Position numbers and translations under genes: made by a program. Of a DNA stretch of 39,144 bases, positions 12,044-38,918 are shown in pieces (within the stretch, counting starts at the first letter, position 1; every line of letters starts with the position of its first letter). Origin of the DNA: Thermoleophilia bacterium (GTDB taxonomy: Bacteria > Actinomycetota > Thermoleophilia > Gaiellales > Gaiellaceae); the NCBI GenBank assembly GCA_009694305.1, contig SHVL01000024.1, forward strand, positions 1 to 39,144, read 5' to 3'. The notes beneath the pieces were generated by a model. It made no database searches and had not been told where the DNA came from. It saw nothing but the letters and a program-made list of their open reading frames with translations.

Positions 12044-13111
12044 TTATCCTTCGGCGCCGAGCGCGTCAACGAGCAGGCGCTCGAAGTGGACGATCAGCCG
12101 TTCGGAGACGGGCATCAGCGTCCCCTCGGTCACGAGGCCCGAGCGCATCCCGACCTGAACGCGCTCGACGAGAACGCGATCCTCCACACCGACCTGCGTG
12201 TCGAGCTCGAGGAAGTCGGCGATCCACTGCTCGTCGGTGTCCGGCAGGAAGAAGTAGTCGAGGAAGCGATAGGCACGCTCGGCGCCGAGCGGTATGACCG
12301 GGCCGATCGACAGGTTGCCGAGACCCGGCATGATATTGATCGTCGTGCTGGGGAAGAGAAGGTGGAACTGCGCGCGGCCAACCTCTCCTTTCGCGTCGTA
12401 GATGCCTCCGCCACCGTTCTTTGGGGGGCCGAACTGCGATGAGAACGTTGGGTGTTCTTCCATGGTGTACGTCCCTGGCGCCACGTCGATCGCCTTCGAG
12501 AAGCTCGGATGCGCGAGGGCACAGTGGTAGCACTCGAGATAGTTCTCGACGCAGACCTTCCAGTTTGCCTCGTACTCGCCTTCCGACCGCTGGTAGAAGA
12601 CGAGTGCATCGACGTCTATCCCACCCTCCGCCACGAGCTCGGGCAGGGCACCGAGATGCTCCTCGAGGGTGCAGCCGGCGGGGTCAGGGTTGACGAAGAC
12701 GAGGGCCCCCCAGGTGTCCACGAGCATGGGGACGAGGCCGAGGCCGTCGCGCTCGAAGCCTGGCTCGGTCTCGGAGCGCGGAGCGGAGCGGAGCGACCCG
12801 TCGAGGTTGTAGGTCCATGCGTGATACGGGCACTGCAGCGTTGCGCGCTTGCCGGCCCCGTCGCAGAGGAGGTAGCCGCGATGGCGGCAGACGTTCACGA
12901 ACGCCCGGAGCTCGTTGTCGCGGCCACGAACGATCACGACGGGCACGGTTCCTGCTCGACTCGTCACGAACGATCCAGGCTCGGCGAGCTCACCGAGATG
13001 CCCTGCGTACTGCCAGGTGCGCCTGAAGATCCGGTCCTGCTCCAGTCGAGCGACGGACGGATCCAGATACCAGTCGTAGGGAATCGTCTTGGGTCTGGCC
13101 ACGGTTGCCAT
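12044..13111 (-). CDS. Rieske non-heme iron oxygenase alpha subunit, CntA/GbcA-like
   Basis: A 355-residue Rieske-type oxygenase. The [2Fe-2S] ligands are C75-x-H77 and C94-x2-H97 (CRHRG ... CPYH). The mononuclear iron site has H196 and H201 in ENYLECYHCALAHPSF, and an Asp later in the GVEDRVLVERVQ segment. The residue bridging the two metal sites is Glu193 (ECYH) instead of the Asp of classical ring dioxygenases. That is a feature of quaternary-ammonium oxygenases such as CntA and points to demethylation or cleavage of a methylated amine, though the substrate is unproven. A GTG eleven codons upstream is possible, but TACCAT 7 nt before ATG 13111 supports the shorter form. No reductase gene is nearby. 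Confidence 0.88.
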   Translation of the reverse strand: MATVARPKTIPYDWYLDPSVARLEQDRIFRRTWQYAGHLGELAEPGSFVTSRAGTVPVVIVRGRDNELRAFVNVCRHRGYLLCDGAGKRATLQCPYHAWTYNLDGSLRSAPRSETEPGFERDGLGLVPMLVDTWGALVFVNPDPAGCTLEEHLGALPELVAEGGIDVDALVFYQRSEGEYEANWKVCVENYLECYHCALAHPSFSKAIDVAPGTYTMEEHPTFSSQFGPPKNGGGGIYDAKGEVGRAQFHLLFPSTTINIMPGLGNLSIGPVIPLGAERAYRFLDYFFLPDTDEQWIADFLELDTQVGVEDRVLVERVQVGMRSGLVTEGTLMPVSERLIVHFERLLVDALGAEG

Positions 13112-13118
13112 CAGGGGA

Positions 13119-13124
13119 ATGGTA
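13119..13124 (-). promoter_or_regulatory. -10-like hexamer for the Rieske oxygenase gene
   Basis: TACCAT on the minus strand is 7 nt before ATG 13111. It supports that start codon and a leaderless mRNA that may continue into ppk1 and ppx. Confidence 0.4.
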
Positions 13125-13181
13125 GCCGGACCATGCGCAATCACGGAGATGCTAGCCGCATCGTCGTTCCTGCATCGTCCA

Positions 13182-13913
13182 TCATTCCGCTTCGGGCGAG
13201 CTTGCCAGATACTTCGAACAGACGGCTGCGAACGGCCCGTCCGCGACGATCCGCCCGCGGTCTAGCCAGAGCGCCCGGGTCGAGAGCTGCTCGAGCAGCG
13301 GATGGTCGTGCCCCGCGGCAATCACGATCCCGCCGTGTGCAAGGATCTCGCGTGCACGCTCTCGAACGAAGGCGCGGTAGTCGTGGTCGAGGGCCTCGTG
13401 GACCTCGTCGAGCAGGAGGATCGTTGGATCGGCCTCGCCGGCCGTCGCGAAGCCAAGCCTCGCTCGCATTCCCTGCGAGTAGCTTGCAACAGGCTGCTCG
13501 AAGGCGACACCCAGGCCGCTCGCGGCCTGGACGCTCGGCGTCGCGCTCCGAGCCATGGAGAGCGGCAGGCCTGCAAGCACGCCGAGCAGCTGCGCGTTCT
13601 CTCGCCCGGTGAGGCTGCCCATCACGCCTGCACCGACCGAGAGCAGCGCTCCGAGCCTCCCTTCGACGGTGAGCGTGCCGACGTCGGGGACGAAGACACC
13701 ACCGATCGTGCGGAGAAGGGTCGTCTTGCCACCGCCGCTGCGGCCGAGGAGGGCGATCGCCTCGCCCGGGCCGATCTCGAGATCGATATCGCGGAGGCCC
13801 CACGATCTCGTGCCCGCACGACGGAGGTGCGAGAGACGTGGTGAGACGGGACGCCGCTGGCGGTCGAAGCGAAATTCGACACCGACACCGGCGGCGACGA
13901 TCCGCGCGGTCAT
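13182..13913 (-). CDS. ABC transporter ATPase for glycan export (Wzt/TagH-like)
   Basis: A 243-residue ATPase of the ABC-2 polysaccharide/teichoic acid exporter class. Walker A GRSGGGKTT is at 57-65, the signature YSQGMRARLGFA near 145-156, Walker B ILLLDEVHEALD follows, and the H-loop His is in AAGHDHPLLEQ. The segment LLSVGAGVMGSLTGRENAQLLG is typical of the O-antigen/teichoic-acid subclass. There is no C-terminal carbohydrate-binding domain, as in short Wzt and TagH-type proteins. Its GTG/ATG start overlaps the permease stop by 4 nt, so the two are coupled. The exported glycan is unknown, and the adjacent glycosyltransferase gene is broken. Confidence 0.9.
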   Translation of the reverse strand: MTARIVAAGVGVEFRFDRQRRPVSPRLSHLRRAGTRSWGLRDIDLEIGPGEAIALLGRSGGGKTTLLRTIGGVFVPDVGTLTVEGRLGALLSVGAGVMGSLTGRENAQLLGVLAGLPLSMARSATPSVQAASGLGVAFEQPVASYSQGMRARLGFATAGEADPTILLLDEVHEALDHDYRAFVRERAREILAHGGIVIAAGHDHPLLEQLSTRALWLDRGRIVADGPFAAVCSKYLASSPEAE

Positions 13914-14722
13914 CCCTCCACCATCTTGGCGAACTGCCGTTGCTCACTGCGGTAGAGCGGCACGATCAGCGCAAGCAGGATGATCGCGAAGGCAGTGGGG
14001 TAGAGAAGCTCCCATGCTGCCGGGCGTTCGCCATAGAGGAGGACTGATCGGTACGCCTCGAAGATTCCCGTCAACGGGTTCAGCTTCAGCCACTTCTGCG
14101 CGCCGGACGGAACCTGCGAGAGCGCCACCAGTCCCGGCGCGACGAAGAACAGCGTGCGCACGGCCGACAGCACGAACGTCCGGAGATCAGGCCACCAGAC
14201 GCCGATCAGCGATGCGGGGTAGGCGATCGAAAGTGAGACCAGAATCGTGACCAGGATCACGAGCGGCAGCCAGAGGATGGCGATCGTCGGGGCGACGCTG
14301 TACGCGGCCATCATCACGACGAGCAGGATCAGGGATGAGCCGCAGACAATCGTCTCGGTGATCACTCCCGCGAGCGGGATCATCGTCCGGTCGAACCGCG
14401 TGTTGAGGACGATGGAGTGCCGCATTTGCACCGAGCTGAGCCCGTTGACGACACTGGCAATGATGAGCTGGAATGGCACGGTCGCGCACGCGATGCTCAG
14501 GCCCGGCGCCGGGCCGGGACGGTCGACCACGTACGTCACGAGCACGAGATAGACACCGGTGGCAAAGAACGGATCGAGGAGCCACTTCATCACCTGCCAG
14601 CCGCCCCGGCCGTAGCGGGCGCGAAGATCGGACAGCGTCAAAGCGACGAGCAGATCACGTCGGCTCGCCGAGGAGGTTGTCGCGCGGGACGCCTTGCCGG
14701 CCTCGAGCATCGCCTCGGTCAC
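13910..14722 (-). CDS. ABC-2 type permease for glycan export
   Basis: A ~270-residue inner-membrane protein of the ABC-2 family (TagG/Wzm-like) with about six hydrophobic helices and the typical amphipathic N-terminal segment RRDLLVALTLSDLRARYGRG. It pairs with the overlapping ATPase gene downstream to export a polysaccharide or lipid-linked glycan. The open frame can extend to a TTG at 14824. However, a -10-like TATCCT sits 6 nt before the GTG at 14722, and the longer version would overlap the divergent glycosyltransferase start, so 14722 is chosen. ATG 14710, with GAGG just upstream, is another option. Family is clear; the start is not certain. Confidence 0.86.
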   Translation of the reverse strand: MTEAMLEAGKASRATTSSASRRDLLVALTLSDLRARYGRGGWQVMKWLLDPFFATGVYLVLVTYVVDRPGPAPGLSIACATVPFQLIIASVVNGLSSVQMRHSIVLNTRFDRTMIPLAGVITETIVCGSSLILLVVMMAAYSVAPTIAILWLPLVILVTILVSLSIAYPASLIGVWWPDLRTFVLSAVRTLFFVAPGLVALSQVPSGAQKWLKLNPLTGIFEAYRSVLLYGERPAAWELLYPTAFAIILLALIVPLYRSEQRQFAKMVEG

Positions 14723-14728
14723 CGCTGC

Positions 14729-14734
14729 AGGATA
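14729..14734 (-). promoter_or_regulatory. -10-like hexamer for the permease-ATPase pair
   Basis: TATCCT on the minus strand, 6 nt before the GTG at 14722. Together with TATTGT at 14758-14763 on the plus strand it would make a face-to-face divergent promoter with only 23 bp between the hexamers. Confidence 0.4.
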
Positions 14735-14757
14735 CGGCCTGTTGAGCCGGCGCGCGG

Positions 14758-14763
14758 TATTGT
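14758..14763 (+). promoter_or_regulatory. -10-like hexamer for the glycosyltransferase gene
   Basis: TATTGT is 8 nt before the GTG at 14772, the start that best fits the N-terminal sequence of the (now broken) glycosyltransferase. Confidence 0.4.
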
Positions 14764-14771
14764 CGGGCGGA

Positions 14772-15734
14772 GTGTCGAAACCGACCCGGACCCGCCACGT
14801 TTCGATCCACGAGCGAACGGTCAATGTCGCCCGCTACCCGTACGAGTCGGCATCCAACCCGTATCAGACCCTTCTCTATGGGGCGCTTGGGCGCGAAGGT
14901 GTCATCCTCCAGCCGGATCGACCGTTCACGGCTTCGGCGGTCGTCCGACGCGGTCGCGCATCCTGCTTGCGCAGGGCCGATTGCGACTCGCGAGACTGCT
15001 CGGGTATCGGATCGCGTGGACGATCCACGATCTGCCTTCCCGCGAGCAACCAGGGAGCCGTGAGCCGATCGCCGACGCTCTTGCGCGCAGGGCGGATGTG
15101 CTGTTCTGTCACGACGACACGCTTGCCGAACGCGCCGCTCTCGAGCTCGGTATCGACCGCGCTCGAATCGACGTCGTGCCGCACGGGCCACTTTCGACGG
15201 CGTATCCCGCGCCTCGCTCGACCCGCGACGAGACCGTGTTCCTCGCCTTCGGCACTCTCCGCAGGTACAAGGAGATCGACCTCGTGCTGGACGGCTTCCG
15301 CAAGGTGACAGATCCGGGCGCACGGCTCGTCGTGGCGGGCGATCCTGCGGCCGCCGGCATCGAGGAAGTGATCCGTCGGGATGCTGCAGCCGATCCCAGG
15401 GTTGTTGTGCAGGCCCGACACGTTCAGGACGCTGAGGTGAGGGAGCTGTTCGAGGCCTGCGATATCGGCGTGCCCGGCATACGTTCGCCTGGTCGCAGAG
15501 GGTCGGGCCGGTTGGACTTTCGACCCGGCCGGCGGCGCCGACGCGCTCGCGTCGGCACTCGGTCGTGCGCTTGCGACGCCCGCAGCGGCACGGGAGGAGG
15601 CCGGAGCATGTGCGGTCACAGCGAGCGCTGGTCTCACCTGGGAGGGCGCGGCCACCCGCGTTGCGCACCGCCTCCGCGGCAACACCGAGGAAGCACTGCG
15701 CCGTCCGTTCGAGCCCGGTGCCGCTGATGCGTGA
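14772..15734 (+). pseudogene. Decayed GT4-type glycosyltransferase
   Basis: Three consecutive pieces of a GT-B glycosyltransferase lie in shifting frames. Piece 1 (14772 to about 14940) encodes the N-terminal VARYPYESASNPYQTLLYGAL. Piece 2 (about 14950-15475), in another frame, encodes LLGYRIAWTIHDLPSRE, the hinge region IDVVPHGPLSTAYP and FGTLRRYKEIDLVLDGFRK up to ELFEACDIGV. Piece 3 (15477-15734), back in the first frame, encodes AYVRLVAEGRAGWTFDPAGG and the C-terminus. At both joins conserved sequence of roughly 30 residues normally present in this family is missing, including the serine/glycine donor-site loop after ACDIGV. It therefore looks like real deletions rather than single base errors. 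Its stop overlaps the start of the HprK-like gene. Confidence 0.75.
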
Positions 15735-16728
15735 GGTCGGCCTGGCAATTCACGGTCTTCGCGTCACGGTCGTCGGCGACTGGGCCGAGGTCGTCGATGC
15801 CGTGGTCGCCGATTTCGCCTGGTTTCTTTCGCCGGTTCAGACCGGCGAGCCGTCGGGCATCCGGGTCGAGATCGTTCGTGGAGCGCCGGATTACGACGCG
15901 CTGGGCGATGGTACGGCGTCGTTCGTGACGCCCCGTAACGTCGTCTATCAAACAGCCGAGCGCACGATCGTCGACTACTTCGGCAAGGCCCTCTCCGTCC
16001 TCGATCGCTCCTCGGGCGTGCTGACCATTACGGGCGAGACGGCGCATCTCGTCCACGAGGCGGGACACCAGTTTCTCCTCTCTCGCATCGGCGAGCATCT
16101 CGACCGCATCGGCCTCGTCAGGCTCCACGGCCTCGGGCTGTCCGCTGCAGGTGGGGCTATCGTCGTCATGTTGCCCTCGGGCGGCGGCAAGAGCACCCTC
16201 GCGTTGCGGGCGCTCGAGGCGGACAACGTGAGGGTTCTCGCCGAGGACACCCCGCTCATCGATCGCAGGGGAACCGTCCACCCGTTTCCCCTCCGGATCG
16301 GGATCAACGAGACGGACGCCGATCGCCTCCCCCCCGCGAGCGTGCGACGGATCGAGTGGATGGAGTTCCACCCGAAGCTCGCGCTCGACCTCGAATCCTT
16401 CCGCCACCGAATCGACCCTGTGCCGCGCCCTCTTGCCCACATCGTTATCGGCCGTCGCTCGATAGGCCGGTCGGCGACGCTCGAGCCGATGCCGCGTCGG
16501 GCTGCGGTAGGCCCACTGCTGAGCGAGGGTGTTTTCGGTGTCGGCGTCTACCAGGGGATGGAGTTCGTCCTTCAGCACGGGATGCGGGACGTGATCGGCA
16601 AAACAGGCACCGTCGCGATGCGCGCCCGGTGCTGCGGCGCCGGGCTCCGACACGCCAGGGTGTGGCGGTTGACGATCGGCCGTGACCACGAGCGCAACTG
16701 GGGAGCCCTGGCCCCACTCTTGCGATGA
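15727..16728 (+). CDS. HPr kinase-like P-loop protein of glycan/peptide clusters
   Basis: A 333-residue protein related to the catalytic domain of HPr kinase/phosphorylase. A Walker A LPSGGGKST lies near 149-157, preceded by LHGLGLSAAGGAIVVM and followed by an acidic segment LAEDTPLIDRRG typical of HprK-like kinases. The first ~145 residues form a separate domain lacking the HprK N-terminal fold. Proteins like this occur in lasso-peptide and polysaccharide clusters of actinobacteria, where the phosphorylated substrate is mostly unknown. The ATG at 15727 overlaps the end of the broken glycosyltransferase by 8 nt, and its TGA overlaps an ATG at 16725 that would begin the next gene. The frame is intact, unlike both neighbours. 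Confidence 0.82.
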   Translation: MREVGLAIHGLRVTVVGDWAEVVDAVVADFAWFLSPVQTGEPSGIRVEIVRGAPDYDALGDGTASFVTPRNVVYQTAERTIVDYFGKALSVLDRSSGVLTITGETAHLVHEAGHQFLLSRIGEHLDRIGLVRLHGLGLSAAGGAIVVMLPSGGGKSTLALRALEADNVRVLAEDTPLIDRRGTVHPFPLRIGINETDADRLPPASVRRIEWMEFHPKLALDLESFRHRIDPVPRPLAHIVIGRRSIGRSATLEPMPRRAAVGPLLSEGVFGVGVYQGMEFVLQHGMRDVIGKTGTVAMRARCCGAGLRHARVWRLTIGRDHERNWGALAPLLR

Positions 16729-18005
16729 GCGGTTCGCAACTCTCGGTCGTCTCCGTTGCTCCCGTCCGGGCCACCCTTCGCCGGGGCCTTGTCGCCTAGC
16801 CGGACAGCGGTGGAGGTTGCGCGACGCTGCGTAGTGGCGACGTCGGCAACTCCTCTCCGTCACATCTGGGCGCTCGGGTACTCGGTCGCAACCATCGTCG
16901 CGTCGAAGCGGTTGGCCTCGCGGTTCGACGGCTCCGTGTACGCCCGAGGCTCGTCCGGCAAGCGGCGTCTGGTTCCCGGTCTCTCGGATATCGATCTGGT
17001 TGTCGTCACCCGGTCGGATGCGTCGGTGCCGGCCTGTGCATCGGTGCATCGATTCGACGGCCTCGTCCAGGCCGACATCGTGAGCTCCACCGATCTTGCC
17101 ACGATCGCAGGCGTCACGAACACGACCTTCGGTCTCGGGAACGGAGCCGCGGCGTACCACGGACGGCGTATTCCGCGCGATCCCGTGAACCTGCTCGACC
17201 GACCGGGACTCCCCTCCGATCAGAACGGGTGGCGCCAGCTTGCAGGCCCGAAGCACGCTGTCTCGATTGGCGAGCGAACCCGACAGGAGGTTCGCGAGGC
17301 GGCATGGTGCGAGATCGTTTGGTGGGCGCGTTTCGCAACGAGGGCGGTCGTACGCGACCACCAGCACCCGGCGGATGCGTACCTGTGCGTGAAGCTCGTC
17401 GCAGAGCCACTGCGCGTTCTGCTCGCCCTCGGAGAGCACGTGCGGTTGATCCGAGATCCCCACGCTGTCGACCTACCGCTCGTCGACTGGCGTGCGCTTG
17501 TATCCGAGAGCGTCCCCGTCCGCCAGCTGCAATCGGTCGTGGCCGACCCAGGGAGCCCCGCCGATCTCGAGGAGGTCTGTGCTTCCCACGGTTCCGACCT
17601 GCCTGTCATCCAGTCGGGCGACCTCCTGCTCGAGCCCACCACACACCGGGCCGAGCCGGTCGGATGCGGATGCTCCAGGCGTGGTTCACCGATCCCGTGT
17701 CGTTCGCCGTGCTGTCCGGGTCGACGGTGGCCGTGTTCCCGAGCGCTCGCGGATGGTGTGCCTCGGACTGGGCACGGCGCGCTGTCGCCGAGCGACGGGC
17801 CTGGCTTCACGCAGGCGGATCGGAACAGGCGACGCCGAGCGGTTGGACGAGCCGTCCCGATGCTCTCGAGGCGACCCGCGCGCGGCACAGTTCGCATTGT
17901 CCATCTCGGAGGGCGAGCCCGAGCTTCGCCTCGATGGTCGACGCCCTGCGCGAGCACGTCAGGGACGCTCTCGACCGGGCGTCGCGAGCTCTCGGCTCCG
18001 TTTAA
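16725..18005 (+). pseudogene. Nucleotidyltransferase-like gene with several frame changes
   Basis: The central part (about 16800-17650) encodes a nucleotidyltransferase-fold domain with the motif GSSGKRRLVPGLSDIDLVVV (GS-x-DxD type). A natural start would be the ATG at 16725, overlapping the HprK-like stop as ATGA, but that frame (MSGSQLSVVSVAPVRATL) stops after 24 codons and the domain continues in another frame. Towards the 3' end the likely coding frame changes again: MLQAWFTDPVSFAVLSGST from about 17660, QFALSISEGEPELRL near 17885-17930, and MVDALREHVRDALDRASRALGSV to the stop near 18005. Without a start shift, a TTG at 16756 opens the central frame. Either the gene is decaying or this stretch has indel errors. 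Function is unknown; a role in the glycan locus is inferred. Confidence 0.6.
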
Positions 18006-18039
18006 CCTGGCTTAGCGGTCGACTGGCTCGGCGCGCTGG

Positions 18040-18045
18040 TACCCT
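18040..18045 (+). promoter_or_regulatory. -10-like hexamer for the M20 operon
   Basis: TACCCT lies 6 nt before ATG 18052. A weak -35-like GTCGAC is at 18018-18023 with a 16-bp spacer. It would drive the M20, ATP-grasp and C45 genes as one leaderless message. Confidence 0.45.
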
Positions 18046-18051
18046 CGCCCG

Positions 18052-19338
18052 ATGCCGGGCACCGGACAGACGGCGATCGATGGCGCCGCAGCGGAGATTG
18101 CGGAGGCCGTCGTCGCAGAGTCGGCGTACATGGAAGAGCTCCTCGTCCGCCTCGTCGAGGCGCCAACGACCCTCGGCAACGAGGAGCCCGGACAGGAGGT
18201 GATGCGAGACGCATTCCGCGCGCTCGGCCTCGATCCCGCCGACATGCCACTGGATGAGGAGATGCTCCGGGCTCATCCTGCTGCGTCACCGTTCTCCTGG
18301 GACGTCTCGGAGAAGCGCAATGTGATCGCCAACTGGCACCCGACAGGCGAGGGCGGCCGATCGCTCGTCCTCAACGGCCACATCGATGTCGTCGCACCTG
18401 CTGCTGCGAACCTCTGGCGCACCGCGCCGTTCTCCGCGGTCCGCGACGGCGACTGGCTCTATGGTCGTGGCGCCGGAGACATGAAGTGCGGACTAGCGAT
18501 CATCCTGGGTGCCGTGAAGGCGCTCCGCGGCCTCGGCCTCGCACCTCTCGCCCCGCTCCAGCTGCAGTCGGTTGTCGAGGAAGAGTGCACCGGAAACGGT
18601 GCGCTTCAGTGCGCGGTCAGTGGCCTGCAGGCCGACGCGTGCGTCGTGACGGAGCCGTTTCCGGCGTCCATGTCGATCTCGCAGGTCGGAGTGCTCTGGT
18701 TCCATGTAGACATTGCAGGTCTCCCGGTGCACGCGGGAGACGCGCAGGAAGGTGCAAACGCGATCGAGGCTGCCTTCCCGGTGGTGGCGGCTCTGCGACG
18801 TCTCGAAGACGAGCTGAACGGGAATCCACCTGAGGCGTATCGGATGTTCGAGCATCCGATCAATCTCAATATCGGAGTCGTTCGTGGCGGTGACTGGCCG
18901 TCGACCGTTGCAGCCGAGTGCACGCTCTCCTGTCGTCTCGCCCTCTTCCCTGGCCAACCCGTCGAGTGGCTCAAGCAAAAGGTGGAGGCCGCAGTGGCGC
19001 ACGCCGCAGAGGGTCACCCGTTTCTGGCCGCCCATCCACCACGCGTGCGCTACGACGGCTTCGCCTGCGCAGGTTCCGAGATCGACGTCGAGGACACCCT
19101 CGTCACCACACTTTCGGGAAGCTACGCGAGCCTCGAGGGAGTCGCCCCGGCCCTTGTCTCGACGACCGCGACGACCGACGCACGGCTCTTCATCCAGCAG
19201 GGCATTCCAGCCGTCTGCTTCGGCGCCTGGGCAGAGAACGCGCACGGGGTCGACGAACGCGTCAATATACCCTCGATGATTTCTGCAGCCCAGGTTCTCG
19301 CGGTGTTCATCCGCGACTGGTGTGGGCTCGCCGGATGA
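18052..19338 (+). CDS. M20 family metallodeacylase (ArgE/DapE type)
   Basis: A 428-residue di-zinc hydrolase of the M20 peptidase/deacylase family, related to ArgE, DapE and carboxypeptidase G2. The metal and catalytic residues are visible: His in VLNGHIDVV (near 107), Asp in GRGAGDMKCG (near 142) and the catalytic/ligand pair in VVEEECTGNG (near 177). The usual dimerisation (lid) domain lies between about 200 and 310. Such enzymes cleave N-acyl amino acids or dipeptides; the substrate here is unknown. It is the first gene of an operon with an ATP-grasp enzyme (ATGA overlap) and a C45 protein, all acting on amide bonds. No signal peptide is seen, so it is cytoplasmic. Confidence 0.9.
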   Translation: MPGTGQTAIDGAAAEIAEAVVAESAYMEELLVRLVEAPTTLGNEEPGQEVMRDAFRALGLDPADMPLDEEMLRAHPAASPFSWDVSEKRNVIANWHPTGEGGRSLVLNGHIDVVAPAAANLWRTAPFSAVRDGDWLYGRGAGDMKCGLAIILGAVKALRGLGLAPLAPLQLQSVVEEECTGNGALQCAVSGLQADACVVTEPFPASMSISQVGVLWFHVDIAGLPVHAGDAQEGANAIEAAFPVVAALRRLEDELNGNPPEAYRMFEHPINLNIGVVRGGDWPSTVAAECTLSCRLALFPGQPVEWLKQKVEAAVAHAAEGHPFLAAHPPRVRYDGFACAGSEIDVEDTLVTTLSGSYASLEGVAPALVSTTATTDARLFIQQGIPAVCFGAWAENAHGVDERVNIPSMISAAQVLAVFIRDWCGLAG

Positions 19339-21014
19339 AGGCCCGGACGCTCGCTCTGCTCGGCATCGTTCTGGCGCTGATTGGCGCGGCAGCGGCACGC
19401 CTGCAGCGGAGGCGAACCACCGCCACCGATGTTCCGGTGGCAACCGAAACAGCCGTCGCACCTGTTGTGGTGGAGCCCGCGCCGGAGCCAGAGCCAGTTC
19501 CGGAGCGCCCGGTCTACGCGCCTCCGGTTCGTGCGTTTGCAGGCGGCGCCGCTCCTGCACCGCTGCGCGGGATCAGCGAGATCCGCCGCTTCTTCCGCAC
19601 GAACCGGACGCCTATCTGGTTCGTCTCCGCGACGCCCTTCAATCTGCTCGGGATCGACCGCTGGGTGCGCAACTTCTCGTACCTCAACTACTACGACTCG
19701 TTCGACGGCTCGCACCCGAACGTCTTCGTCCCCGAGCACGTCGCGCCGCCGACCTTCGATTCGATCGAGGAGATCTGCAACTACCTGCTCGGCCACAAGG
19801 AAGTGATCGACCGCGTCAAGGCGAGCGGCGGTGGCAAGGCGGTCTTCCTGATGTTCGACGGGGAGACGGAGCGGCTTGCCCGAGAGGCCGGGCTCGAGGT
19901 GGCGTTCCCGCCCGCCGAGCTCCGTAACCGGCTCGACTCGAAGATCGTCACGACCCAACTCGGCGACGAGGCCGGCGTGCCGAGCGTCCCTAACATCCTC
20001 GGACACGCCGCGACCTACGAGGAGTTGCTCGCTCTCGCCAACACGCGTGGGATAGGCACCGATCTCGTCGTGCAGACCCCGTATGGCGACTCGGGTCAGA
20101 CGACCTTCTTCGTCGCGTCGGTCGATGACTGGGACGAGAACGAGGGCAAGATCGTGGGCCAGGAGTTGAAGGTGATGAAGCGCATCAACTGCCGTGAGGC
20201 GGCGATCGAGGGCGTGATCACGAGGCACGGAACCCTGGTGGGACCGTTGATGACCGAGCTGACGGGCTTCCCGGAGCTCACCCCGTACGGCGGCGGCTGG
20301 TGCGGCAACGACGTGTTCGCGGGGGCCCTCTCCGAGGAGCATCGACTCCAGGCGAGAGCCTTCACGCAGCAGATGGGAGACCGGCTGCGCGAGGAGGGCT
20401 ACCGCGGCTATTTCGAGCTCGACTTCCTCGCCGACATGGACACGGGCGAGATGTGGCTCGGTGAGCTGAACCCCCGTGTCACGGGGGCGAGCTCGATGAC
20501 CAACGTGACGGCGGTTGCCTACGGTGACATGCCCCTCTTTCTCTTCCACCTGCTCGAGTTCCTCGACGTGGACTACGAGGTCGACGTCGCCGAGCTCAAC
20601 GCCGGCTGGGCCCAGCCGAGCGCGATCGACGAGTGGGCCCAGTTCATCCTCAAGGACACGGCCGACGTGGTCGAGCTGATCACCGAGGCGCCCCGGTCGG
20701 GCATCTGGAAGCTCGACCCGGAAGCCCACGGCGGCATCTCCTTCGCCCGTGAGGCGACAGACTGGCATACCATCGCGAGCGAGGACGAGGCCTTCTACCT
20801 GCGTATCGCGCAGGCCGGCGGCTACCGCTATCCCGGCGCCGACATCGGCATCCTCGTCACGCGCGGCCGCCTGCAGACGGACGACCACGAGCTCACCGAC
20901 CGTGCTCGCACGTGGATCAACGGGATCAAGCGGCAGTTCCTGACAGTGCCGATCGGGAAAGACGAAGCACCGCCCGTGCGCGAGCCGGAGCCCTTCTCGT
21001 TCAAGATGCTCTGA
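19335..21014 (+). CDS. Membrane-anchored ATP-grasp ligase
   Basis: A 559-residue protein. Residues ~5-22 (LALLGIVLALIGAAAARL) form one membrane helix followed by arginines, then a Pro/Glu-rich linker (EPAPEPEPVPERP). The rest is a soluble ATP-grasp domain of the biotin-carboxylase/carboxylate-amine ligase type. The nucleotide-binding core includes DLVVQTPYGDSGQTTFF, and the metal-binding strand is GYRGYFELDFLAD ... WLGELNPRVTGAS (NPR near 378). ATP-grasp enzymes join a carboxylate, via acyl phosphate, to an amine or thiol. The membrane anchor is unusual and suggests a lipid-linked or membrane-delivered substrate. ATG 19335 overlaps the M20 stop, and the C45 gene starts 7 nt after its end. Substrate is unknown. 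Confidence 0.85.
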   Translation: MKARTLALLGIVLALIGAAAARLQRRRTTATDVPVATETAVAPVVVEPAPEPEPVPERPVYAPPVRAFAGGAAPAPLRGISEIRRFFRTNRTPIWFVSATPFNLLGIDRWVRNFSYLNYYDSFDGSHPNVFVPEHVAPPTFDSIEEICNYLLGHKEVIDRVKASGGGKAVFLMFDGETERLAREAGLEVAFPPAELRNRLDSKIVTTQLGDEAGVPSVPNILGHAATYEELLALANTRGIGTDLVVQTPYGDSGQTTFFVASVDDWDENEGKIVGQELKVMKRINCREAAIEGVITRHGTLVGPLMTELTGFPELTPYGGGWCGNDVFAGALSEEHRLQARAFTQQMGDRLREEGYRGYFELDFLADMDTGEMWLGELNPRVTGASSMTNVTAVAYGDMPLFLFHLLEFLDVDYEVDVAELNAGWAQPSAIDEWAQFILKDTADVVELITEAPRSGIWKLDPEAHGGISFAREATDWHTIASEDEAFYLRIAQAGGYRYPGADIGILVTRGRLQTDDHELTDRARTWINGIKRQFLTVPIGKDEAPPVREPEPFSFKML

Positions 21015-21021
21015 TGCCCTG

Positions 21022-22005
21022 ATGCTCACCTTCGAGGCGATCGAGCAACTCGAGCCCGGTGCCCGCTGGGCCAAGCTCTTCGAGGCGCACTGGCCGCGCT
21101 ACCGGGCGTGGTTCCTGCAGGAGGGTGAGGCTGCGCGTCCCTCCTACGCTGCATCGCTGCGGGCATTGCAGGAGCACATGCCCGAGCTCGTGCCGACCTA
21201 CGAGCGCGTGTGTGCGCTTGCGGGTGGTGGCGATCTCGAAGCCCGCTTCCTCGCGATGTGGGCGCCGCCGTCGTATCTCTCGGGTTGCTCCCAGGCCGTC
21301 TGGCAGGGGGCGCCGGCACCGGTGCTCGCGCGCAACTACGACTACGCCCCGGAGCGACTCGAGGGCTCGATCCTCCACACGCGGTGGGTGCAGCCGGTGA
21401 TCGGGTCGGGTGATTGCGCGTGGGGTCTTCTCGACGGGGTCAATGGCGCTGGTCTCGCGGTCTCGCTTGCGTTCGGCGGCAGGAAGGTCGTCGGCTGCGG
21501 CTGCGGCTTCGGCGTTCCTCTCGTCGTTCGGTACCTCCTCGAAACGTGTGAGACGACCGAGCAGGCGCGGGCGACGTTGAGGCGACTGCCGTATCACCTT
21601 GCGCACACGCTGACGATCGTCGATCTCGGGGGCGACGTCTGCACGGCGTATCTCTCTCCCGACCGCGAGGTCGAGCTGACGGTGGCGGTTACCGCGACGA
21701 ACCATCAGGGAGGCGTCGAGTGGCACGATCACGCGCGCGCCACGATGAGCGTGGAGCGGCACGGGGCGCTCGAACGGCTCGTGACCGAAGCCGGAAGCGC
21801 GGACCGGTTCGTCGAAGGGTTCCTGGTACCGCCGCTCTTCGTTACGGACGGCAACAGCCGCCTCGGCACGCTCTACACCGTTGCCTATCACGTCGGCGAG
21901 GGACGGGCCGAGTTCCGCTGGCCGGGGCTGCGGTGGGATCAGAGCCTCGGGGCGTTCTCCGAGGGCGTGCGCACCGCCGGGCTCGCGAGGAGCCCGGTCG
22001 GCTGA
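21022..22005 (+). CDS. C45 family autoproteolytic acyltransferase/hydrolase
   Basis: A 327-residue Ntn-fold enzyme related to acyl-CoA:isopenicillin-N acyltransferase (MEROPS C45). In these enzymes the chain cuts itself before a cysteine that becomes the N-terminal nucleophile; Cys89 in YLSGCSQAVW is the candidate. It is followed by PVLARNYDYAPE (101-111) with the Arg and Asp typical of the family, and NGAGLAVSLAFGGR later. C45 enzymes transfer or remove acyl groups at amide bonds. The ~88 residues before the cysteine would be the small subunit. ATG 21022 is 7 nt after the ATP-grasp stop, so it is the third gene of the operon. It converges with the aminotransferase gene. Substrate is unknown. 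Confidence 0.82.
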   Translation: MLTFEAIEQLEPGARWAKLFEAHWPRYRAWFLQEGEAARPSYAASLRALQEHMPELVPTYERVCALAGGGDLEARFLAMWAPPSYLSGCSQAVWQGAPAPVLARNYDYAPERLEGSILHTRWVQPVIGSGDCAWGLLDGVNGAGLAVSLAFGGRKVVGCGCGFGVPLVVRYLLETCETTEQARATLRRLPYHLAHTLTIVDLGGDVCTAYLSPDREVELTVAVTATNHQGGVEWHDHARATMSVERHGALERLVTEAGSADRFVEGFLVPPLFVTDGNSRLGTLYTVAYHVGEGRAEFRWPGLRWDQSLGAFSEGVRTAGLARSPVG

Positions 22006-22041
22006 CCCCGGCTGGCCGACCCCTTCTAGCGTGCGGCGCCG

Positions 22042-23427
22042 TCAGGATGTGAGGTCGTGCGCCAGCTCCTCGAACGCCGCCACGAACGTGTTGCAGTCCT
22101 CGATCGTGTGCGTGATCGAGAGCGTCCACTCCTCCTCGCGGCCAGGCGTCATGAAGATGCCACGGTTCATGTTGTAGAGCCATGCGAGCGAGCACAGCTC
22201 CTCGTCCTGGTTCGCCTTGAACGACTCGTAGTCGGTGATCTTCTCGGGTGAGAACGTGACGCAGCCCTTCGAGCCGACGCCGACGGAGTACCCCGGGAAC
22301 TCGTACTTCTCGATCACGGCCTGGCAGCCGGCAAGCAGGTGCTCGTTGAGCGCGTCGAGGTGGTTGTAGGCGTCGGGCGTCATGACGTCGAGCAGGTTGG
22401 CGCGGGCCGCCGCCATCGACAGCGGATTGCCGTTGTAGGTTCCGACCTGCACGATCTCGCCGCTCTCGACCTTCTCGAACACCTCCGTCGTGCCGCCGAT
22501 CGCTCCCGACGGGAGGCCGCCACCGAGCGCCTTCGCGAGCGTGACCATGTCGGGCATGACGCCGTACTTCTCGACGGCGCCTCCGGCCGCGATGCACATA
22601 CCGGTCTTGACCTCGTCGAAGATCAGCAGGATGCCGTGCTTCTTCGTTATCTCGCGGACGGCCTCGAGATAGCCGGGCTCGGGGAGGACGACCCCGAGAT
22701 TCATCATCGCGGCCTCCATGATCACGCACGCCGGCGCGCGGCCCTCCTCGATCAGTTTTTCGATCCGATGTTCCATCGCCTCGGCGTCGTTGAACGGGAC
22801 GGCAATCGTCATGTCCACCACGACCTGGGGGATGCCGAGGCCGTACGGGATCGACTGGAGGTCGAAGCGGTCTCCGATCGAGTCGTAGTCAACGCCGAGC
22901 GAGACCATCACGTAGTCGTGATGCCCGTGGTAGGAGCCGAAGATCTTCACGATCGTGTCGCGGCCGGTGGCGCCTCTCGCGATCCGAATCGCATCCATCG
23001 TCGCCTCGGAGCCCGAGTTGACGTAGCGCCACTTCTCGAGCCCGAAGCGCCGCGCAAGCTCTTCGCCAACGATGATCGCGTCCTCGGTGGGCGCAGCGAA
23101 GTGCGTGCCGAGACCGATCCGGTCGGTCACGGCCTTCGAGATCACGCCATGCGCGTGGCCCTGCACCATCGAGCCGAACCCGTTGTGGAAGTCGAGGTAC
23201 TCGTTGCCGTCAACGTCCCACACCTGCGCGCCCTTCCCGCGAGAGAGGTAGATAGGCCAGGGATCGCGCACCTGGTACGAGGAGGCGACGCCGCCGACGA
23301 GGCTCTTCCGGGCGCGCGCGTAGAGTTCCCTCGAGCCCTGCGTTCGTGTATCGAGCCTTGCCGATTCTCGATCGGTCAGTTCCTTGATCTTTGCGCGATC
23401 GATATCAACATGGGCTCGGGTTGCCAT
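22042..23427 (-). CDS. Class III PLP aminotransferase, glutamate-1-semialdehyde aminomutase-like
   Basis: A 461-residue fold-type I PLP enzyme of class III. The PLP-binding segments are NSGSEATMDAIRIAR, YHGHHD, the Asp of FDEVKTGM and the Schiff-base Lys in TLAKALGGGLPSG. It is closest in style to HemL (glutamate-1-semialdehyde 2,1-aminomutase), but no tetrapyrrole genes are nearby and the N-terminal ~45 residues differ. It may instead be an omega- or beta-amino acid aminotransferase. A clear ribosome binding site AGGAGG lies 8 nt upstream of the ATG, unlike most genes here. It faces the M20/ATP-grasp/C45 operon (36 bp between stops) and diverges from the M2 peptidase. It may supply an amino compound to them (inference). 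Confidence 0.88.
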   Translation of the reverse strand: MATRAHVDIDRAKIKELTDRESARLDTRTQGSRELYARARKSLVGGVASSYQVRDPWPIYLSRGKGAQVWDVDGNEYLDFHNGFGSMVQGHAHGVISKAVTDRIGLGTHFAAPTEDAIIVGEELARRFGLEKWRYVNSGSEATMDAIRIARGATGRDTIVKIFGSYHGHHDYVMVSLGVDYDSIGDRFDLQSIPYGLGIPQVVVDMTIAVPFNDAEAMEHRIEKLIEEGRAPACVIMEAAMMNLGVVLPEPGYLEAVREITKKHGILLIFDEVKTGMCIAAGGAVEKYGVMPDMVTLAKALGGGLPSGAIGGTTEVFEKVESGEIVQVGTYNGNPLSMAAARANLLDVMTPDAYNHLDALNEHLLAGCQAVIEKYEFPGYSVGVGSKGCVTFSPEKITDYESFKANQDEELCSLAWLYNMNRGIFMTPGREEEWTLSITHTIEDCNTFVAAFEELAHDLTS

Positions 23428-23511
23428 CGTGGACGCCTCCTTGAGGTCGTGGATGCTCGTAGTGTGCCGTAGTTCGGCTCGTTGTGTACCTCACACGAGG
23501 TCTGGCCGACG

Positions 23512-23517
23512 TAGGAT
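23512..23517 (+). promoter_or_regulatory. -10-like hexamer for the M2 peptidase
   Basis: TAGGAT is 8 nt before ATG 23526 and supports this start over the GTG at 23484. AGGA within it could also serve as a ribosome binding site. Confidence 0.35.
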
Positions 23518-23525
23518 CGCATACG

Positions 23526-25121
23526 ATGACCGACCCGGCGAGCGTATCCGACCTGATCGAAGCCGAACTGGCTCCCCTCCACGCCGCGTCGTCGAGGGCC
23601 GTGTGGGACTTCAACATCCTCGCGAACACCACACACGAGGCCCGCCGCATAGAGGCCGAGACCGCTCTGTCGGACTTTCTGGCCGACGGCGAGCGGTTTG
23701 CCGTGATCGAGCAGGCGCGTGCGGAAGCGACCGGCACACCCCGGCGTCGGCTCGACCTACTCCGGGCGTCGTTCCTCGCACACCAGGTTCCCGTAGAGCT
23801 ACGCACGCGGATCATCGAGCTGGAGGCCACCGTGGAGAAGGCCTTCTCCGTTCACCGCGGCAGCGTCGCCGGAAGCCGGGTGGACGACAATGTGATCCTG
23901 GGCATCCTGCGCGAGAGTGACGACGTGGCCGAGCGGCGGGAGGCGTGGGAGGCCTCGAAGACCGTCGGCGCGGTGGTCGCCGACGACGTGCGCGAGCTCG
24001 CTCGACTCCGAAACGCGGCCGCAAGCGCAGTCGGTCACCGGGACTGGTTTGCGCTGTCGCTCGCGACATCCGAGCTCGACGAGGACAAGCTGTTTGCCAC
24101 GCTCGAAGAGGTAGACGCTGCGACCGCCACACCGTTTGCGCGCTGGAAGGCCGATCTCGACGGTCGCCTTGCGGTCCGCTTCGGGTGCCCGGTAGCGGAG
24201 CTCGCTCCATGGCATTACGCAGACCCGTTCTTTCAGGAAGTGCCGGTCGAGGGGGGCGTTGACCTCGACCCCCTGCTCGCGGCGGGCGACACCGTTGCGC
24301 TGTCGGAGAAGACGTTCGCCGGAATCGGGCTCGAGACACTCTCGGTTCTCGACCGGAGCGACCTGTTTCCACGCGAGGAAAAGTGCCAGCACGCTTTCTG
24401 CATCGACATCGACCGTGAGGGCGACGTGCGCGTGCTCGCCAATGTCGTTCCCGGCCAGCGTTGGCTCGACACGATGCTGCACGAGCTCGGCCACGCGACG
24501 TTCGACAGTGGGATCGACCCGACCCTTCCCTGGTTGCTCCGCGACTGCCACACGGTCGTCACCGAGGGCATCGCGATCCTGATGGGGCGACTCGCGGGCG
24601 ACGCCGAATGGCTGGAGCGCGTGCTCGGGGCCGACGCGGCCGTCGTCTCTGCGATCACGGACGACCTCCGTGCTGCGCGCGCCGCCGAGCTTCTCGTTTT
24701 CGCGCGCTGGGTTCTCGTGATGACGCATTTCGAGCTCTCGCTCTACGCCGACCCCGAGTCCGACCTGGACGCGCGGTGGTGGGAGCTCGTCGAGCGCTAT
24801 CAGCTGATCGCTGCCCCGGCCGGCCGTCGCAGGCCGGACTGGGCCGCCAAGATCCACGTCGCCTGTGTGCCGGTCTACTACCACTGTTACCTCTACGGGC
24901 ATCTCGTCGCCTCGCAGCTCGCCGCCGTCCTGGAGCGAGAATGCGGCGGGCTCGTTGATCGCCCGGCGGCCGGCGCCTTCCTCACCCGGCGCATCTTCGG
25001 CCCGGGGCTCTCGGTGCGATGGGATGCGCTGATCGAGCAGGCCACGGGCGAACCGTTGACCGCCACGCACTTCGGTCGGCAGATCGCGCCTCCGCCTGCG
25101 CCCCGGGGGGGCCGACTATGA
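23526..25121 (+). CDS. M2 family (ACE-like) peptidyl-dipeptidase
   Basis: A 531-residue, mostly helical zinc metallopeptidase of family M2, the family of angiotensin-converting enzyme, which removes C-terminal dipeptides. The HExxH motif is in MLHELGHATFDSG (near 316-322), and the third zinc ligand Glu follows about 27 residues later in VVTEGIAILMGRL. The N-terminal VWDFNILANTTHEARR matches the substrate-lid start of M2 enzymes. It is shorter than an ACE catalytic domain (~600) and has no signal peptide, so it probably acts on cytoplasmic peptides. A GTG at 23484 would add 14 residues but ATG 23526 is better placed. Its link to the amide-bond cluster is positional only. Confidence 0.88.
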   Translation: MTDPASVSDLIEAELAPLHAASSRAVWDFNILANTTHEARRIEAETALSDFLADGERFAVIEQARAEATGTPRRRLDLLRASFLAHQVPVELRTRIIELEATVEKAFSVHRGSVAGSRVDDNVILGILRESDDVAERREAWEASKTVGAVVADDVRELARLRNAAASAVGHRDWFALSLATSELDEDKLFATLEEVDAATATPFARWKADLDGRLAVRFGCPVAELAPWHYADPFFQEVPVEGGVDLDPLLAAGDTVALSEKTFAGIGLETLSVLDRSDLFPREEKCQHAFCIDIDREGDVRVLANVVPGQRWLDTMLHELGHATFDSGIDPTLPWLLRDCHTVVTEGIAILMGRLAGDAEWLERVLGADAAVVSAITDDLRAARAAELLVFARWVLVMTHFELSLYADPESDLDARWWELVERYQLIAAPAGRRRPDWAAKIHVACVPVYYHCYLYGHLVASQLAAVLERECGGLVDRPAAGAFLTRRIFGPGLSVRWDALIEQATGEPLTATHFGRQIAPPPAPRGGRL

Positions 25122-37357: not shown

Positions 37358-37541
37358 TCCCGCTGTCGTTGCCGCATGGGTCGAGGCTTCGTGCGCTTCG
37401 CAGGGGCTTCCCGTACACGTGACTGATCTGGGGTCACTGGGCCAGGTGGCTGACCTGATGGGCGCGGCGCCCGGCGTCAGCCGGGAGGCGCCCCGCAGGC
37501 CGGCAGCTGGGTCAGACGCGCCAGACCGGCTGGAGGCGTGA
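37350..37541 (+). CDS. Small element protein overlapping the Rep-like gene
   Basis: A 63-residue protein. The ATG at 37350 lies within the last codons of the Rep-like gene (8-nt overlap), so translation is likely coupled. The first ~35 residues are a helix-forming, balanced sequence (VAAWVEASCASQGLPVHVTD) and the C-terminal tail is Pro/Arg-rich. The 3' end overlaps the convergent recombinase gene by 30 nt. No known family. It may assist Rep or be a DNA-binding accessory (inference). Confidence 0.55.
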   Translation: MTDPAVVAAWVEASCASQGLPVHVTDLGSLGQVADLMGAAPGVSREAPRRPAAGSDAPDRLEA

Positions 37542-38918
37542 GGCGTCGAAGCGGTTGTAGCCCTGCCTGCCGGGTGCGACAACGACGTGATCGAGGACGG
37601 CCTTGATGATCGCCTGCTGCCGGGTCAGGTCGAGCGTCTGCCACCGCTCCCGCAAACCGGAGTCCGCTCCAACGTTGCCATCAAGCACGGTCGTACGGGT
37701 CGCCTTCGCAAGCTGCTTACGAGCAAGAGTGAGCCTTGCTTCGATCGGTTTACGTGCGGCGAGCCATTCGGCCATCCCTATCGCCTTGTTGCCGTAGGCG
37801 TCTGCAAGCTCCGCGAGCTGTGCCTGGGCCTCGTCGGCCTCGCGCTGGTATCGCTCCGCGTCGGGCTGCGAGCGTTGCTGCCCGTTCAGGATCGCGGCGA
37901 ACTCGGGCGAGTCGAGGCGATACAGCACGGCCTCGGCCACGAACGCCTCGGCTTCATCGGCTCCGAGGTATATGTGGCCGCAGCCACTCAGCCCCGGGCC
38001 TTTCGCGCAGGCATAGCGCTTCTGGCCGCCGCTCCGGGGGCGAGCTACCATCGGCTCCCCACACAGACCACACCGCAGCACCCTGGTCAGCAGATAGCGG
38101 CGGGCGCTCCTGTTCGTCCGCCGGGCCGGGTCATCGAGTGTCGCCCTAATAGTCGCGCTCGCGGCCGTGGTGATGATCGCGTCCCACTCGGCAGGAGCCA
38201 CGATCTCCCCTTTGTGCTCACGCTGCCCTGCGATCCGACCGGAATAGAGCATCCGTCGCAAGGTCTGGGGCGACCACTCCCCACCGCTCGCAGCCACGAT
38301 CCCACGGTCGTTCAGGTCAGAGCAGATCGCCCGGATCGACTCACCCGCCAGGAAACGCCTCGCACACTCACGCACAACCTCGGCCTCGGCCGGGTTGACC
38401 GTTAGCCGGTCGGCGTTGTATCCGTAGGGTCTGCTGCCGCCGCCTGAGAGCTTGCCGTTCTCGGCGAGCTCCTCGTGCTTGCGCTGGATACGACGGCTTG
38501 TGTCGTCGCTCGACTTCGCTGCCATCGCACCCAGGATACGCGCCTGGAACCGCCCATCCGTAGTGGTCAGATCGATCTGACCACTGACCGAGGCGACGTT
38601 CGTCAGGTGCAACCGGTCGCAGAGATCGATGAACGCCTCCAACTCACGCGGCTGCCGATGCAAACGATCAAGGTCATAAACCAGAAGCCCGTCGATCACA
38701 CCGGAAGCGAGATCATCAAGACACCGGGCGTACTCCGGCCGCGCCTTCCCACTCCACGCGCTCACATCGTCATCGACATACCGCTCGACAACCTCCCAGC
38801 CCCTGCGCTCCCCAAGCCGCTCACAGTCCGCCAGCTGCCGCCGCACGCCAAGCGTATCGCCCTCACGATCAGACGAAATCCGCGCATAGATCCCAGCACG
38901 AACCGGAGCAATAATCAC
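37512..38918 (-). CDS. Large serine recombinase (integrase)
   Basis: A 468-residue site-specific recombinase of the large serine integrase class. The N-terminal catalytic domain has AGIYARISSDREGDTLGVRRQ with the nucleophile Ser15 and Arg13, and YDLDRLHRQPRELE and GRFQARILGAMAAKSSDDTSRRI further on. A recombinase domain follows (residues ~165-270). A zinc ribbon comes next (RCGLCGEPM ... CAKGPGLSGCGH), then a coiled-coil segment (PDAERYQREADEAQAQLAELADAYGN). Such enzymes insert and excise elements between short attP and attB sites without host factors. The GTG start has TATGTT six nt upstream. A copy of the 14-bp repeat lies 23 bp upstream, where an attachment site often sits. Confidence 0.95.
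   Translation of the reverse strand: MIIAPVRAGIYARISSDREGDTLGVRRQLADCERLGERRGWEVVERYVDDDVSAWSGKARPEYARCLDDLASGVIDGLLVYDLDRLHRQPRELEAFIDLCDRLHLTNVASVSGQIDLTTTDGRFQARILGAMAAKSSDDTSRRIQRKHEELAENGKLSGGGSRPYGYNADRLTVNPAEAEVVRECARRFLAGESIRAICSDLNDRGIVAASGGEWSPQTLRRMLYSGRIAGQREHKGEIVAPAEWDAIITTAASATIRATLDDPARRTNRSARRYLLTRVLRCGLCGEPMVARPRSGGQKRYACAKGPGLSGCGHIYLGADEAEAFVAEAVLYRLDSPEFAAILNGQQRSQPDAERYQREADEAQAQLAELADAYGNKAIGMAEWLAARKPIEARLTLARKQLAKATRTTVLDGNVGADSGLRERWQTLDLTRQQAIIKAVLDHVVVAPGRQGYNRFDASRLQPVWRV

Follow-up and report, generated by a model that had tools for sequence, protein, structure and literature searches.

The contig SHVL01000024.1 of a Thermoleophilia bacterium (Actinomycetota, Gaiellaceae), analysed over 39,144 nucleotides and here called the window, carries an operon in which a gene encoding an ATP-grasp protein is followed by a gene encoding a C45-family protein. 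We show that these two genes form a conserved unit, and of this we are near certain. An earlier note on the window had described three amide-active enzymes in the operon (an M20 deacylase besides the two proteins named), had grouped them with a neighbouring class III aminotransferase and M2 peptidase, and had proposed a pathway for an acyl-amino acid or small-peptide metabolite. What stands of this interpretation is the conserved ATP-grasp and C45 core together with an M20 gene limited to one clade. The aminotransferase and the M2 peptidase drop out, and metabolite biosynthesis is disfavoured.

Co-occurrence of the ATP-grasp and C45 genes

Relatives were drawn from a search of genome contigs (38 loci), from genomes of the order and phylum and from plasmids. 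In the phylum sample (392-396 genomes) the ATP-grasp gene is present in 15 genomes and the C45 gene in 11, and all 11 fall among those 15. The ATP-grasp gene is adjoined by 11 of the 13 C45 copies. The two others are the copy in genome G219, where the contig with the ATP-grasp gene stops about 70 bp beyond the aligned gene end so that the neighbour there cannot be judged, and the second copy in genome G166. The four ATP-grasp genomes without C45 belong to one genus, which in our reading of a nearby PPE-like gene appears mycobacterium-like; a beta-lactamase-fold serine hydrolase adjoins their ligase.

Both genes are present at 29 non-redundant loci, mostly 11-317 bp apart. Their order varies, with either the ligase or the C45 gene first on the same strand, one convergent arrangement and one pair 3 kb apart. 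The distance matrices of the two proteins over these loci correlate with r = 0.86, against a maximum of 0.34 in 5000 permutations, a correlation to which shared species history contributes. Alpha-, Beta- and Gammaproteobacteria also possess the pair, again in either order, and it is adjacent by coordinates in 18 of 20 plasmid records among the matches listed. No relative was found in the phages searched. C45 genes without an ATP-grasp gene occur in Sulfitobacter and on many Sinorhizobium plasmids; these are about 35-39% identical, have unrelated neighbours and stand outside the tight pair.

Concerning the core, the neighbourhood is therefore not confined to this strain, and the co-occurrence of ATP-grasp and C45 is strong and extends to other phyla. 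The M20 gene, which the earlier note had placed on a par with them, is an operon member in the nearer clade but not across the wider set: it adjoins the ligase at seven loci (L022, L023, L024, L026, L084, L085, L086), all of the nearer actinobacterial clade. The commonest actinobacterial form is a two-gene operon without other enzymes.

Two genomes hold two pairs each (L078/L079 in G038, L081/L082 in G052), with ligases about 70% and 57% identical to that of the window; apparently the two genes are duplicated or move together. The C45 gene of the nearest relative (L022, 11488-12450, same genome as L080) has an in-frame stop near codon 15, which could be an assembly error or could reflect a later start or decay.

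Predicted activities of the encoded enzymes

The curated family that the ATP-grasp protein matches (NF005096 / PRK06524; Table 1) is named 'biotin carboxylase', and a Pfam search with this protein gave no match. Its structure model, built with 30 sequences (predicted local distance difference test score, pLDDT, 88.7), fits ATP-grasp enzymes over their whole length. Biotin carboxylase, PurK, PylC, PurD and the amino-acid ligase BesA are tied at Z 20.8-22.5, so that the fold alone cannot choose the function; the biotin carboxylase 3ouz, for instance, aligns with Z 22.5 and a root mean square deviation of 4.2 over 384 residues. The likeness to biotin carboxylase is thus one of ATP-grasp fold (Z about 22), whereas the catalytic stretch differs. 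The segment MEMNTRIQVEH of the biotin carboxylase from the same genome aligns to GELNPRVTGAS in the window protein, and ExNPRxxGxS, kept across 30 homologues, replaces ExNxRxQVEH of biotin carboxylase. Glu, Asn and Arg are retained, and the Gln-Val-Glu-His part is lost. Due to this loss we read the protein as a ligase, and judging by its sequence it is likely to be an amide ligase rather than a biotin carboxylase. A true biotin carboxylase, as the family name and the fold would have it, is almost certainly the wrong assignment. The QVEH stretch is replaced, no gene for a biotin carrier or a carboxyltransferase was seen adjoining in the loci examined, and we rejected this identity on the missing ExNxRxQVEH motif.

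The C45 protein scores above the family cut-off, has the N-terminal-nucleophile fold and a conserved Cys nucleophile. In its model (pLDDT 89.7) the closest solved structure is isopenicillin N acyltransferase (2x1c, template modelling score 0.69, 16% identity), and Cys89, Arg104, Asp107 and Asn227 are invariant in 16 homologues. Fold and Cys nucleophile are shared with acyl-CoA:isopenicillin N acyltransferase, but that enzyme belongs to a penicillin pathway of which there is none here, and the window protein is presumed to be an amidase. The M20 protein passes the curated cut-off of an ArgE/DapE-like family.

Elsewhere, other amide hydrolases stand beside the ligase, and where a ligase copy has no C45 gene in its vicinity, a nitrilase-like or NylB-like hydrolase often takes that place. 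A nitrilase-like hydrolase lies near it in alphaproteobacterial loci and in Plasticicumulans, and in several actinobacteria it is adjoined by a serine hydrolase for which NylB is the best match among solved structures. A rhizobial operon holds both a NylB-like hydrolase and a NylA-like amidase, the latter matching NylA with 250 bits against 159 bits for the next different family. NylB-like neighbours of the ligase score 241 and 195 bits against NylB. Among the genomes that were searched whole, nine with a nitrilase-like or NylB-like neighbour gave no such C45 at E <= 1e-15. Since unrelated amide hydrolases adjoin one and the same ligase, hydrolysis and not acyl exchange is suggested as the common second step. 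Such clear homologues of NylA and NylB lie next to the ligase in Rhizobium and in certain actinobacteria, but not at the window operon.

In Rhodococcus qingshengii a counterpart of the rhizobial NylA-like amidase (42% identity) is encoded in a Puu/Ipu-like operon that also holds a glutamine-synthetase-family protein and a gamma-glutamyl-GABA hydrolase (GABA, gamma-aminobutyric acid), and in Pseudomonas MPC6 a NylB-like gene lies near an agmatinase gene and two class III aminotransferase genes. As a separate observation, a near-identical unit of transporter, NylA-like amidase, RpiR regulator and NylB-like hydrolase is found on many rhizobial plasmids (e.g. L107, 14700-23347), including plasmid records in which the ligase was not among the matches listed.

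Gene context and a possible role in catabolism

In Shinella, Taklimakanibacter, Aestuariivirga and 'Roseateles' XES5 (a record marked unverified and over 90% identical to Shinella in this region) the pair lies inside one operon-like row. Its order is Lrp, amino acid permease, 5-guanidino-2-oxopentanoate decarboxylase (737 bits, cut-off 500), aldehyde dehydrogenase, ATP-grasp, C45, D-amino acid dehydrogenase and racemase, and in Shinella and 'Roseateles' XES5 the row includes an agmatinase-family gene. By its predicted enzymes, such a row fits an arginine-to-GABA route, or the same route with ornithine. GABA transaminase genes are found at five loci (L054, L056, L077, L108, L157), of which L054 also has a GABA permease gene and L056 one for an amine oxidase. 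In the genome of the window a GABA transaminase scores above cut-off, away from the operon; an ATP-grasp-like match beside it (contig C11) has, in our reading, a D-Ala-D-Ala ligase-like N-terminus and was not counted. Polyamine-type ATP-binding cassette transporters were seen near L029 and L048, and PotA matches elsewhere, which are generic ATPases, were likewise left out.

In Rhizobium leguminosarum, Sinorhizobium meliloti SM11, Roseobacter and Cupriavidus a gene like the Orn/Lys/Arg decarboxylases lies just upstream of the pair. We rejected it as a dedicated partner, since homologues without the ligase adjoin aspartate transporter/decarboxylase genes. One R. leguminosarum copy of the pair adjoins nifHDKEN. 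Another is near nifA/nifB and nod genes, its C45 gene cut short beside insertion sequence elements; this copy (L147, 19992-24391) is on the OyaliB plasmid p3. This symbiosis plasmid carries nif, fix and nod genes and, about 21 kb off, a further C45 copy beside the transporter unit.

Bacteroids of S. meliloti are described as running a redundant arginine-to-GABA network (PMC7268258). As far as that paper was drawn on here, the network overlaps with the gene context of the pair in a 2-oxo acid decarboxylase, ornithine decarboxylases, dehydrogenases and GABA transaminases, but no ATP-grasp ligase or C45 hydrolase was seen in those parts of it, and the term 'biotin carboxylase' is absent from its main text.

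We propose that the module ligates, processes and hydrolyses omega-amino compounds of arginine, ornithine and polyamine catabolism. This proposal, which draws on the gene context of distant loci, is tentative and in our estimate falls slightly short of an even chance. Gene order, conservation, protein families, predicted folds, the lost biotin-carboxylase motif and the neighbourhoods are what the analysis shows, and from these we infer the ligase activity, the substrates, the direction and a role that distant members share with the window gene. The ATP-grasp enzyme would spend ATP in joining a carboxylate to a small amine by an amide bond, and between the steps the reactive omega-amino group could stay blocked while the conjugate is oxidised, transaminated or transported. 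The C45 protein is predicted to cut itself before Cys89, thereby becoming an N-terminal-nucleophile amidase (or acyl-transferase), and would open the same or a derived amide. The clade of the window would add the M20 deacylase as a further amide hydrolase. The compounds conjugated would be omega-amino or omega-guanidino compounds on the way from arginine, ornithine or polyamines to GABA. The omega-amino compound could be either the amine or the carboxylate partner; a hint of omega-aminoacyl amides comes from the NylB-like neighbours.

When free, omega-amino-2-oxo acids and omega-aminoaldehydes form rings, and this is among the reasons for the capping of amino groups in Puu- and LysW-type systems. 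An ATP-grasp ligase together with an amidase could achieve such capping with different folds. In the gamma-glutamylation pathways for putrescine (Puu) and isopropylamine (Ipu), too, an amine is ligated at the expense of ATP, the compound is processed in its blocked state and an amidase releases it, Puu yielding GABA. These pathways use glutamine-synthetase-like ligases, glutamate as the partner and, in PuuD, a hydrolase of the class I amidotransferase type, whereas the window has ATP-grasp and C45 folds, no oxidase in the operon and a partner that may differ. Being an ATP-grasp protein and not a glutamine-synthetase-like gamma-glutamyl ligase, the window ligase would at most work like these enzymes and is not one of them. 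In the LysW/ArgW system (LysX, LysJ, LysK) an ATP-grasp enzyme blocks the amino group, a class III aminotransferase converts the compound thus blocked and an M20-type enzyme releases it. These three enzyme types are found in the window too, but its operon includes C45 and its aminotransferase is unlinked. No small carrier-protein gene lies in the operon, where the genes are spaced by -4 and 7 nt; the search for a carrier covered the operon and not the remaining genome.

Several points weigh against the catabolic proposal. Beside the operon in the window's own clade no arginine, polyamine or GABA gene was found, and its own genome has no Orn/Lys/Arg decarboxylase of PF01276. With no catabolic genes adjoining in this clade, the extension to the window is carried over from context loci whose ligases share 51-62% identity with its own, and substrates may differ over that distance. 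Many actinobacterial loci hold the pair alone, with or without M20, and lack enzymes for tailoring. Instead of hydrolysing, C45 enzymes can transfer acyl groups. The nitrilase-like and NylB/NylA-like neighbours are at most candidate functional replacements, and a best match in the PDB depends on which structures exist.

The closest solved relative of the C45 protein is indeed an acyltransferase, peptide-like amides are products of some ATP-grasp ligases, BesA and PylC among them, and many loci contain the pair and M20 alone. These observations would suit a pathway that builds a metabolite of the acylated amino-acid or small-peptide kind, in which the ATP-grasp enzyme makes a dipeptide-like amide, C45 swaps an acyl group like isopenicillin N acyltransferase and M20 trims or recycles. 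We consider such a pathway, which is what the earlier note had proposed but without the aminotransferase, unlikely but still a serious contender. No acyl-CoA ligase or carrier protein recurs beside the pair in the loci examined, and at distant loci its neighbours encode importers, catabolic enzymes and amide hydrolases whose folds are unrelated. Since most of these neighbours serve catabolism (the routes from arginine, ornithine or polyamines to GABA, GABA transaminase, amide hydrolases with different folds), a catabolic role in which amides are formed and opened again is favoured over metabolite production. The earlier note knew of no described pathway with this set of enzymes; we found none either, nor any paper on the ATP-grasp and C45 gene pair in the open-access literature.

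A cycle of detoxification, storage or osmolyte formation would need no tailoring at all: a stable amide, e.g. an omega-aminoacyl conjugate, would be made under amine excess and reopened later by C45. The prevalence in actinobacteria of two-gene operons without other enzymes fits such a cycle, as do the recurrent NylB/NylA-like neighbours, relatives of hydrolases of omega-aminoacyl amides. Where the pair is inserted between the decarboxylase/aldehyde dehydrogenase and the dehydrogenase genes of a catabolic operon, a processing step fits better, and we regard the cycle as improbable. Finally, ligase and amidase might be a general scaffold with different jobs in each clade, the window copy with its M20 and anchor acting on something unrelated to arginine or polyamines. 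The absence of arginine and GABA genes beside the operon in the window clade, its clade-specific M20 and a ligase identity of about 53% to the arginine-operon copies point this way; the conservation of the core and its active-site residues over the whole set speaks against it, and in our judgement it is improbable.

The operon of the window and its surroundings

The coordinates of the operon and the genes next to it are given in Table 1. Gene positions, families, the ATGA overlap of the M20 and ATP-grasp genes (stop TGA at 19336-19338, ATG at 19335), the 7-nt gap between the ATP-grasp stop (ending at 21014) and the C45 ATG at 21022, the convergent aminotransferase gene and the M2-like peptidase gene next to it are all as the earlier note had given them. 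It had also called the ATP-grasp protein membrane-anchored. A hydrophobic stretch is present in the window protein (residues about 6-21, followed by RLQRRR), but it varies among relatives and is not a defining feature: neither the closest relative (L022, 77% identical) nor the proteobacterial members have it. On account of this variability a membrane anchor was rejected as part of the mechanism.

Table 1. Positions of the operon genes, of features within them and of neighbouring genes in the window
Feature	Position	Strand	Evidence
M20 ArgE/DapE-family deacylase	18052-19338	+	PRK06837 432.5 bits, cut-off 376; Peptidase_M20 97 bits
ATP-grasp protein, predicted carboxylate-amine ligase (core gene)	19335-21014	+	NF005096 747.1 bits, cut-off 684
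Hydrophobic N-terminal stretch and RLQRRR of the ATP-grasp protein, possible membrane anchor	19335-19412	+	Sequence; not conserved
C45 autoproteolytic amide hydrolase/acyltransferase (core gene)	21022-22005	+	151 bits, cut-off 85 (NF040521, PF03417)
Cys89 codon, predicted self-cleavage site and nucleophile	21286-21288	+	Invariant in 16 homologues
Class III aminotransferase, glutamate-1-semialdehyde-aminomutase-like, judged outside the module	22042-23427	-	Aminotran_3 214 bits
M2-like peptidase, judged outside the module	23484-25121 (alternative ATG 23526)	+	Peptidase_M2 42 bits, cut-off 23

The aminotransferase and the M2 peptidase do not belong to the cluster. In a genome of the same genus that lacks the operon (G006), polyphosphate kinase, Rieske oxygenase, aminotransferase and M2 genes are contiguous, with 98 and 117 bp between the aligned ends of the last three. 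The window keeps these four genes, but about 8.9 kb ending in the operon separates Rieske from aminotransferase. Of 61 relatives, 27 encode the aminotransferase, most of them without having the ATP-grasp gene, and in relatives carrying the operon the aminotransferase gene does not adjoin it. At L023 the order is Rieske, M20, ATP-grasp, C45 and M2, with no aminotransferase detected. There the M2 gene directly follows C45, a position explained by the same site between Rieske and M2. All genomes sampled from the genus have this M2 gene, whether or not they carry the operon.

The Rieske ring-hydroxylating oxygenase gene (window 12044-13144, minus strand) adjoins the aminotransferase gene on one strand in G006 and G008, and the two may form a unit of their own. 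The interval between them in the window (13145-22041), which is absent from G006, contains four open reading frames without family matches besides the operon and may be an acquired block. A serine site-specific recombinase gene with Resolvase and Recombinase domains, possibly part of a mobile element, lies at 37512-38918 (minus strand). A second copy of the aminotransferase, 72% identical, is encoded elsewhere in the same genome (contig C42, 5627-7006; L136).

The analysis brings to light a widely spread enzyme pair that is filed as 'biotin carboxylase', a name its catalytic motif contradicts. Its neighbours link it in a testable manner to the breakdown of arginine, ornithine and polyamines, including on rhizobial symbiosis plasmids beside nif. 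In the broadest form of this idea, which we think rather unlikely, the ATP-grasp enzyme would cap omega-amino intermediates of these routes and C45, NylA/NylB-like or nitrilase-like hydrolases would uncap them; such amides would hence be the natural substrates of NylA/NylB-type enzymes, and rhizobia would use the module beside nif in symbiosis. Through the NylA- and NylB-like neighbours of the ligase, the question of the natural role of the relatives of nylon-oligomer hydrolases would become directly testable.

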